Shown one piece after another: positions 16,862 to 19,683 of a stretch of DNA of 64,000 nucleotides (position 1 is the stretch's first letter; every line of letters begins with the position of its first letter). The translations under genes and the position numbers were made by a program. The notes beneath the pieces are model-generated. The model searched no databases. It saw nothing but the letters and a program-made list of their open reading frames with translations, and was not told where the DNA came from. Source of the stretch: Victivallis lenta (lineage in GTDB: Bacteria > Verrucomicrobiota > Lentisphaeria > Victivallales > Victivallaceae); assembly GCF_009695545.1 (NCBI RefSeq), contig NZ_VUNS01000005.1, forward strand, positions 124,001 to 188,000, read 5' to 3'.

Positions 16862-17407
16862 CTATGCTCCGTTCCCGTCCGACAGGATGATCCAGTATAT
16901 CTGAACGGTGCCGCCGCTGTGCCGGAACTCCCGTTCGAGAACGCCGCCGCGGCGCAGGATGGTCCGGCGCGACCCTTCATTGTCCGCGTTGCATGAGATC
17001 ATGACCCGGTCGAGTCCGAGACTGGAGCAGTACGACAGCGCCAGGCGCAGCATTTCCGCGGCATATCCCCTGCGCCGCTCCGACGGGTGCACGCCGTAGC
17101 CGATGTGCCCGCCGTAATTCCGCAGAAAGCCGTTCAGACGGTGGCGGACGTCGATCATGCCGACGATCCGCCCGTCGTTTTTCCGGACGGCGAAGAAGGT
17201 GGTGGCCGGGACCCAGCCCGGAAAAACCGTGGTTTCGGAGCGGTTCCCTTCCACCAGCGCCAGCCACCCCGCATAGCTGTCCGCCCGGTCGAGCAGCGCG
17301 CTGCCGTGCAGTTCGCGCTCGCCGTGTGCAAAGTGTTCCCGCCGGTACTCCAGCGCCGCCGCCTCGTGCCGCTCGTCCGGCAGGATCAATTCGAGTTCGT
17401 CCGCCAT
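16862..17407 (-). CDS. GNAT family N-acetyltransferase
   Basis: 181 residues. GHIGYGVHPSERRRGYAAEM (about 105-125) is the acetyl-CoA pyrophosphate-binding motif A (R/Q-x-x-G-x-G/A), followed by LDRVMISCNADNEGSRRTIL, motif B with the Asn of small-molecule GNATs. This layout matches the YwlE/YoaA-like acetyltransferase group with unknown substrate. The ATG at 17407 is preferred over the one at 17413 because AAAGG is 8 bases upstream. The unit is monocistronic, between the PilT terminator and the convergent hairpin at 16825-16856. Confidence 0.85.
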   Translation of the reverse strand: MADELELILPDERHEAAALEYRREHFAHGERELHGSALLDRADSYAGWLALVEGNRSETTVFPGWVPATTFFAVRKNDGRIVGMIDVRHRLNGFLRNYGGHIGYGVHPSERRRGYAAEMLRLALSYCSSLGLDRVMISCNADNEGSRRTILRRGGVLEREFRHSGGTVQIYWIILSDGNGA

Positions 17408-17426
17408 ATTCATTGCCTTTCCGCAA

Positions 17427-17456
17427 GAAAAAAGGCGGCCGCTGCAGGCCGCCTTT
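17427..17456 (-). terminator. Terminator of the tandem PilT gene
   Basis: Perfect 10-base stem AAAGGCGGCC/GGCCGCCTTT with 6-base loop, followed on the minus strand by a T-run; 16 bases after the stop at 17473. Confidence 0.9.
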
Positions 17457-17472
17457 CCGGAGGGTTGCCGGA

Positions 17473-19683
17473 TCAATAGGCGTCGTCCGCCTTGTAGTCG
17501 AGCATGTAGGTCTGCATCTCCTCGAGGCTGATCTTGCCTTCGCTGTACAGCGTTTCGAGCGACTTCTGCATCGTGATCATGCCGTCTTTCGCGCCGGTTT
17601 CGAGCAGCGACTGCAGCATGGCGGTCTTGCCCTCGCGCACCAGAGCCTGCACCGGCGGCGTGCCGACCAGGATTTCGAACGCGGCGACGCGCCCTTTGCC
17701 GTCGACAGTGGGCAGCAGCCGCTGCGAAATGATGCCGAGAATCACGCTCGCCAGCTGGAGCTTGATCTGGTTCTGCTGGTGCGACGGGAACGAGTCGATG
17801 ATACGGTCGATGGTCTGCGGCGCGCTGTTCGTGTGCAGCGTGCCGAACACGAGGTGGCCGGTTTCCGCCGCGGTCAGGGCGGCCGCGATGGTTTCGGTAT
17901 CGCGCATTTCGCCGACGAGAATCACGTCCGGGTCCTCGCGCAGCGCGTATTTGAGCGCCGCCGCGAACGAGTGCGTGTCGGAGTGGACTTCGCGCTGCTC
18001 CAGCAGCGACATGATGTTCTTGTGCACGTATTCGATCGGGTCCTCGATCGTGATGATGTGTTCGGCGCGGTTCCGGTTGATGAAGTCGATCATACTCGCC
18101 AGCGAGGTCGATTTGCCGCTGCCGGTCGGGCCGGTGATGAGGATCAGCCCCTGCTGCTTCGTGGTGAGCTGCAGAATCTGCGGCGGCAGGTTCAGGTCTT
18201 CCGGCTTCGGAATCTTGCTGACGATCACGCGGCAGACGATGCCGACCGTGCCGCGCTGGTGGAAGCCGTTCACGCGGAAACGCCAGTTTTCGCTTTCCCC
18301 GGTCTCCTGGTCCATGACCAGCGAGATCGATAGCGCGAGGTCGACTTCGCGGTTTTCTTCGAACTCGACCCGCTGGACCGGGTTCAGGATGCTGTTCAGC
18401 AGCCGCGCCGTATCCTGGCCGGTCAGCACCGGCAGATCGAGCGGGCGCAGTTCGCCGTGGATGCGGAGCACCGGGCTCGAGCCGGCCGACAGCAGAAGGT
18501 CCGACGCGCCGGTTTTCACGGCCGTCTTCAGCAGGCGACTCATGTCGATGAACTGGATATCGGGATCTTCCGCGTCTTCCGCGCTGCCGTATTGACTGGC
18601 GAACGAGTCGACGCCGGACTCCATGCCGCGCAGCATAAGCTGAAGTTCGTCGCGGTTCGACACGGCTTCGTTGGCCGCGTCGAGCGAGATGAAACCGTCC
18701 TTGTAGAGGCGGAAAATCGCGCGGGTGAAGGTGATCATGCCGCTGCTGCCGCCGCGCTTGAGCGCCTCCGCGAGCGCACGCATGTCGCGGTCGCCGACCA
18801 GCTTCTTCACCGTCGGGGTGCCGAGCAGGATTTCGAGCGCCGGAAACATGCCGTTGCCGTCGGCGCGCGGAACCAGCCGCTGCGCGATGATGCCGACCAG
18901 CGCGTTGCCGAGGTCGCTGGCGATCTGCAGCCGCTGCTCCTCCGGATAAAGGTCGACGACGCGTTCGATCGCCTGAACCGTGTCTCCGGTGTGGACGGTC
19001 GTGATGACGAGGTGCCCGGTCATCGCCGCGGCCAGCGCGACCTGGACCGTATCCATGTCGCGCATTTCGCCGATGACGATCACGTCGGGACTTTCACGCA
19101 GCGCCGCGCGCAGTGCGTCGGAGAAGCTCGTCGTGCTCGAGTTGAGCTCGCGCTGCGTCACGAGGCAGTTGATGTCGCGGTGCAGGAATTCGATCGGGTC
19201 CTCGATCGTGATGATATGTTTGTTGAAGTTGTGGTTGATGTAGTTGACCATGGCGGCAAGCGTGGTCGATTTGCCGCTGCCGGTCGAACCGACCACGATG
19301 ATGATGCCGCTCTTGTTCGTACACATTTCGGCCAGCGTCGCGGCCGGCAGACCGAGCTCCTCGAAGAAGAGCGCTTCGCCCGGATAGACCGGACGGGCGA
19401 CGAAGGCCGGGCCGGTCAGCGCTTCGAGGAAGTTCAGGCGGAACCGTTCGCCGGTCGGCAGCGTGTAGGCCGAGTCATAACTGCCGCGGGCGTGGTACTC
19501 CTGTTCGGCCTTCGCGGTCAGGCACTGCTTGCGGAAAGCGTCGATCTCCTGCGCGGTCAGATACTCTTCCCCCTCGGGGAGCACCTGCCCGGACCGCCGG
19601 AATGCCGGCGGCTTGCCTGCGGATACGAAGAGGTCGGATGCCGCCGATTCCATGGCGTAATGAAGAAGATCGCTGATTTCCAT
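17473..19683 (-). CDS. Tandem double PilT-type retraction ATPase in one polypeptide
   Basis: 736 residues, twice the usual 340-380. Two complete PilT modules sit head to tail. Module 1 (about 1-365) has Walker A GSTGSGKS at 132-139, Walker B PDVIVIGEMRD at 199-209 and the His box HLVITTVHT. Module 2 (about 378-736) has GPTGSGKS at 518-525, PDVILVGEMRD at 585-595 and HLVFGTLHT, and keeps the PilT-like VREGKTAMLQSLLETG near its end. PilT hexamers pull type IV pili back. Both modules look active, so this could be a PilT-PilU fusion forming a trimer of dimers. AGGGTGAG is just before the ATG. No pilus genes are adjacent, but pseudopilins occur elsewhere in the window. Confidence 0.92.
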   Translation of the reverse strand: MEISDLLHYAMESAASDLFVSAGKPPAFRRSGQVLPEGEEYLTAQEIDAFRKQCLTAKAEQEYHARGSYDSAYTLPTGERFRLNFLEALTGPAFVARPVYPGEALFFEELGLPAATLAEMCTNKSGIIIVVGSTGSGKSTTLAAMVNYINHNFNKHIITIEDPIEFLHRDINCLVTQRELNSSTTSFSDALRAALRESPDVIVIGEMRDMDTVQVALAAAMTGHLVITTVHTGDTVQAIERVVDLYPEEQRLQIASDLGNALVGIIAQRLVPRADGNGMFPALEILLGTPTVKKLVGDRDMRALAEALKRGGSSGMITFTRAIFRLYKDGFISLDAANEAVSNRDELQLMLRGMESGVDSFASQYGSAEDAEDPDIQFIDMSRLLKTAVKTGASDLLLSAGSSPVLRIHGELRPLDLPVLTGQDTARLLNSILNPVQRVEFEENREVDLALSISLVMDQETGESENWRFRVNGFHQRGTVGIVCRVIVSKIPKPEDLNLPPQILQLTTKQQGLILITGPTGSGKSTSLASMIDFINRNRAEHIITIEDPIEYVHKNIMSLLEQREVHSDTHSFAAALKYALREDPDVILVGEMRDTETIAAALTAAETGHLVFGTLHTNSAPQTIDRIIDSFPSHQQNQIKLQLASVILGIISQRLLPTVDGKGRVAAFEILVGTPPVQALVREGKTAMLQSLLETGAKDGMITMQKSLETLYSEGKISLEEMQTYMLDYKADDAY

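Follow-up and report, generated by a model that had tools for sequence, protein, structure and literature searches.

We identified a single open reading frame of Victivallis lenta that encodes two PilT-family ATPase modules in one polypeptide, an arrangement that is shared by most sampled genomes of the class Lentisphaeria. We consider it rather probable that this tandem serves a type IVa pilus as a pre-assembled dual retraction motor, in which an accessory ATPase is joined to PilT. The first-pass annotation of this DNA, made from the sequence alone, knew of no described case of a fused PilT pair, and we likewise found no description of one in the literature searched (sources other than subscription journals); the passages on "fusion" in the atlas PMC6668835 do not refer to a fused PilT pair. 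The tandem is thus new as a variant of the PilT/PilU family, in the sense that no earlier description of it was found.

Two PilT-family domains in one open reading frame

The frame occupies positions 17473..19683 on the minus strand of the window, the whole stretch of 64,000 nucleotides that was analyzed. It comprises 736 codons, with the initiating ATG at 19683 and the stop codon at 17473–17475. The coordinates and length given in the first-pass annotation were exact, and the strand, which had been left unstated, is the minus strand. The description of the product as two complete PilT ATPases fused into 736 residues was borne out by searches with TIGR01420 (pilT_fam), the model of the PilT/PilU family, which matched two stretches of this one frame with a summed score of 844 bits in hmmscan. 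In a genome search, near full-length matches to the same model scored 390 bits for the NH2-terminal half and 457 bits for the COOH-terminal half, both above its curated cut-off of 319 bits. The NH2-terminal half (N-half; residues 1–357; 18613..19683, minus strand) was assigned as an accessory PilT-like ATPase domain and the COOH-terminal half (C-half; residues 381–736; 17476..18543, minus strand) as a canonical PilT domain, with an acidic and variable linker (residues 358–380; 18544..18612, minus strand) between them. The presence of two ATPase modules per chain is unlike the usual one-module architecture of PilT and PilU, which the TIGR01420 profile itself does not demand. Among the best matches, no curated Pfam or NCBIfam model is specific to the tandem, in agreement with the earlier expectation that no known family has this architecture, and no chain in the PDB spans both halves as a single chain.

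Walker A, Walker B, and His-box motifs, which had been claimed for both halves, were located in each of them together with an Asp box, all on the minus strand. In the N-half, the Walker A motif GSTGSGKS (residues 132–139; 19267..19290) has its Lys in all 44 N-halves compared, the Asp box is TIEDPIE (159–165; 19189..19209), the Walker B motif PDVIVIGEMRD (199–209; 19057..19089) contains the catalytic residue Glu206 (Glu in 43 of 44), and the His box contains H224 and H231 (18991..19014), each of which is His in 42 of 44. In the C-half, the Walker A motif is GPTGSGKS (518–525; 18109..18132) and the Asp box is TIEDPIE (545–551; 18031..18051); the Walker B motif PDVILVGEMRD (585–595; 17899..17931) contains the catalytic residue Glu592, and this Glu as well as H610 and H617 of the His box (17833..17856) were found in 44 of 44 C-halves.

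The two halves differ at other positions, for which we use the residue numbers of P. aeruginosa PilT. The AIRLIR motif matters for retraction. Its equivalent in the C-half is PVQALVR (residues 677–683; 17635..17655, minus strand), the last Arg of which, corresponding to Arg294, is present in 44 of 44 C-halves versus 1 of 44 N-halves. Glu219 of PilT and PilU is kept in 43 of 44 C-halves and is Leu or Met in 42 of 44 N-halves. A separate variation concerns the Walker A motif of the C-half, which in 17 of 44 C-halves is GPTGHGK(S/T)T rather than GPTGSGKST, a Ser-to-His replacement that is unusual for PilT and that occurs in other families of the class (for example, L097, L098, L100, and L109).

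Distribution of the tandem

With the whole 736-residue protein as the query, 90 of the 132 Lentisphaeria genomes sampled were seen to contain single-frame tandems of full or near-full length at 37–93% identity, corresponding to 45 of 58 genomes of the same family, 26 of 39 in the rest of the order, and 19 of 35 in the rest of the class. Among these 90 genomes, the match covers the query partly in G011, G389, and G120 and is divergent in G127. A few genomes carry two copies, and one further tandem, in genome G353, is interrupted by the end of a contig. The tandem is therefore a class-wide form and not peculiar to the Victivallis genome. The search for other double PilT proteins that the first-pass annotation had proposed was thus productive within the class and yielded none in the 256 other genomes of the phylum Verrucomicrobiota. 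Single-frame tandems were also not found in 145 genomes of Omnitrophota or 299 of Pseudomonadota, the sample being made up of these three phyla. Long open frames outside the class were considered as candidate fusions, and those fetched proved to be separate frames, in the main neighboring pilT-type genes divided by a stop. Fifteen distant relatives came from phage and viral contigs; no tandem was seen among those inspected, and the top match was a separate, in-frame pair of ATPase genes.

In other phyla, two neighboring genes of this kind can lie in frame with a single stop separating them, and an error of assembly or sequencing could in principle have joined such a pair. However, the frame, in which no stop or frameshift had been read between the modules, is also unbroken in approximately 90 other assemblies, and the GMESG motif at the junction is conserved. 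We therefore rejected such an artefact, to which we attach a negligible probability. The unbroken frame, together with the low dN/dS described below, confirms that the tandem is real and excludes chance or sequencing error. As judged from the sequences sampled, the fusion is ancient and common to most members of the class.

Phylogeny and origin of the two halves

A tree of 92 domains was constructed with a mixture model, and two further trees agreed with it. The N-halves formed one branch (support of 100/100) and the C-halves another (100/99), with the two branches largely mirroring each other; on the evidence of these trees, each half has a single origin. Both halves have in common with PilT (TIGR01420; PDB codes 2gsz, 3jvu, and 6ojx) its fold family and motifs, although PilT is a single-domain homohexamer whereas the tandem has a second, distinct PilT-like domain fused in front. 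The C-half branched inside the PilT clade, apart from PilU (99/99 and 100/97), and has kept the AIRLIR arginine of PilT. The N-half was a separate lineage outside both PilT and PilU. The comparison of the halves with PilT and PilU that had been suggested earlier therefore placed the C-half within PilT and the N-half in neither clade. A clade of the N-half and PilU was absent from the best tree but was not rejected (AU p = 0.27), and a clade of the N-half with upstream genes of Omnitrophota (described below) was likewise not rejected (AU p = 0.35). The signature residues of PilU gave no support to an initial assignment of the N-half to PilU: A230, N231, N232, F217, and A196 are missing from N-halves, which instead have T230, a variable residue at 231, D or N at 232, A217, and S or N at 196, and thus lack HANN, Phe217, and Ala196 of PilU. 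The best solved match to the N-half was the Thermus chain 5fl3, which the tree does not join to the N-half.

Given that both halves belong to the same family, one PilT might have been duplicated internally within the class. A common clade of N-half and C-half was, however, rejected under the model used (AU p = 0.00013, with lnL 52 worse), and we therefore regard duplication inside the class as very improbable. Unfused adjacent pairs, in which an N-half-like PilT gene is followed by a PilT gene, were found in Omnitrophota (L129 and L131) and in other families of Verrucomicrobiota (L074–L076). These pairs have the same order as the tandem and similar halves, and their upstream proteins have Ser196 in common with many N-halves; unlike the tandem, the two genes are separated by a stop codon or a short gap, with a single stop codon between the frames in four of the five pairs. 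The search favors in-frame neighbors, so that the in-frame feature of these pairs is biased, whereas their gene order is not. Because unfused pairs with the same order exist, the tandem is probably a fused pair of neighboring genes, an accessory PilT-like ATPase and PilT. In the simplest history, these two neighbors would have been fused into a single gene close to the root of the class. The main retraction ATPase and its accessory paralogue are likewise adjacent in Gammaproteobacteria, but there they are separate genes in the order pilT-pilU, whereas the tandem has the accessory domain before PilT in one chain.

Conservation of the two halves

The mean identity was 46% among N-halves versus 58% among C-halves, with the N-half being less conserved in 990 of 990 pairs, and the two halves of one protein are approximately 37% identical to each other. 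Relative to the closest named relatives, Victivallis MAGs (L052–L054) with 90–93% identity, NG86 dN/dS was approximately 0.08–0.11 for the N-half and 0.03 for the C-half, values that are approximate because dS is fairly high. Both halves are under purifying selection, and the N-half evolves faster.

All eleven key residues are intact in 39 of 45 N-halves and 44 of 45 C-halves. Among the exceptions is a second tandem copy, L115:8058-10490 (G059:C13), in which the C-half is intact but the N-half lacks the Asp box, the Walker B Glu, and the residues of the His box. This protein is a natural variant with a dead N-half, and N-half catalysis may therefore be dispensable. In another exception, the divergent tandem L078:7080-9242 (G127:C84), Walker B and other key residues are degenerate in both halves, and this protein is possibly a non-catalytic relative. 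An alternative is that the N-half binds ATP in a regulatory or structural role without acting as a motor, with the C-half alone driving retraction. The faster divergence of the N-half in every pair, the loss of Arg294 of AIRLIR, the replacement of Glu219, and the catalytically dead N-half of L115 all point in this direction. On the other hand, nearly every N-half has retained the Lys of Walker A, the Glu of the Asp box, the Glu of Walker B, and the histidines of the His box, and its dN/dS is low, so that an N-half that is not a motor appears to us unlikely.

Proposed model of a dual retraction motor

PilU is a PilT-dependent retraction ATPase (PMC6762196), and Thermus thermophilus has dual motors, with PilT1 as the primary motor and PilT2 as a secondary motor that speeds retraction (PMC12393216), although these are separate proteins, unlike the tandem. 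Given the precedents of PilU and of PilT1/PilT2, we read the tandem as a fused primary and accessory motor. In such a dual motor, a ring of C-halves would contact the PilC platform and drive pilus disassembly, whereas a ring of N-halves would hydrolyze ATP and add force or tune retraction, in the manner of PilU in Vibrio or PilT2 in Thermus. The covalent linkage would fix a 1:1 ratio of the two motors and bring them together.

With regard to geometry, our first choice, held at about an even chance, is that six chains would form two stacked rings, N6 on C6. The tandem AAA+ proteins p97 and ClpB also have two ATPase modules per chain and form stacked hexameric rings; their ATPase family differs, and the analogy applies to geometry only. 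A prediction with AlphaFold2 from a shallow alignment (the window protein, three close orthologues, and four single PilTs) gave a pTM of 0.30, a value too low to bear on the oligomer. Three chains might instead form one alternating N-C-N-C-N-C ring, a pseudo-hexamer in which the COOH-terminal domain (CTD) of the N-half packs on the NH2-terminal domain (NTD) of the C-half. In rings of PilT, PilU, and PilB, each subunit places its CTD against the NTD of its neighbor (PMC5424180, PMC13142100), the linker of the tandem connects exactly the CTD of the N-half with the NTD of the C-half, and C3-equivalent PilT hexamers have been described (PMC13142100). However, PilT and PilU of V. cholerae act as independent homohexamers (PMC6821130), and the halves of the tandem have diverged considerably. 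We place the alternating ring second, as a possible but somewhat doubtful arrangement, and prefer the stacked rings. No description of a double-ring or alternating two-motor PilT-type motor was found in the literature searched. The chances appear evenly balanced that retraction throughout the class relies on an obligate heteromeric motor of 1:1 composition, be it a p97-like double-decker built from two distinct PilT-type rings or a ring in which two motor types alternate with C3 symmetry. The way in which PilT is helped by an additional ATPase such as PilU or PilT2 is unsettled with regard to both separate versus mixed rings and the share of each ring. A natural covalent 1:1 pair with both active sites conserved throughout the class makes this question testable by structure determination and half-by-half mutation.

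Linker between the halves

The N-half closes with the conserved tail motif GMESG (residues 353–357; 18613..18627, minus strand), of which Gly353, Met354, and Gly357 are invariant in 14 diverse orthologues and which takes the form GM(E/D/Q)(S/T)G in all aligned rows. The linker that follows is 17–24 residues long among orthologues and soon becomes variable and acidic. Many orthologues have a Met where the start of PilT itself would be, and internal initiation at this Met, or proteolysis, might yield two ordinary, unlinked proteins in the cell. Several lineages (for example, L099, L102, L113, L100, and L017) have Ile or Leu in place of the Met, however, and obligatory internal initiation is therefore disfavored. 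Moreover, the window has no ribosome-binding-like purine run at a usable spacing upstream of the Met, and the class as a whole has retained the fusion. An internal start for the C-half thus seems unlikely from the sequence, and separation of the halves by either route is improbable.

Genome context

The tandem gene is not part of a pilus operon, and no neighbor is conserved apart from a small gene that occasionally lies upstream of it on the other strand; we therefore infer its role in retraction from its family only. An acetyltransferase-like frame directly 3' of the tandem in the window (16862–17476, minus strand) is perhaps co-transcribed with it and is not conserved at the tandem loci of other genomes. 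A PilB-PilC locus (C20) and a PilM-like protein are encoded in the Victivallis genome, as are, elsewhere, a secretin-GspE-GspF locus and three PilT-like genes besides the tandem; a type IVa pilus is therefore likely, with the tandem being one of several PilT-family loci. Because several type IV filament-like ATPases are present, the partner system of the tandem is not certain.

Two other loci of this genome contain adjoining ATPase genes. A second PilT-family locus, L063:7062-9932 (G000:C30:50706-52850), consists of two strongly diverged PilT-like genes that adjoin each other in one frame, separated by a stop, and neither gene groups with the halves of the tandem; G010, G025, G040, and G046 contain similar pairs. 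At L081 (G000:C20:104136-108283), two adjoining PilB/GspE-like ATPase genes are followed by a PilC gene.
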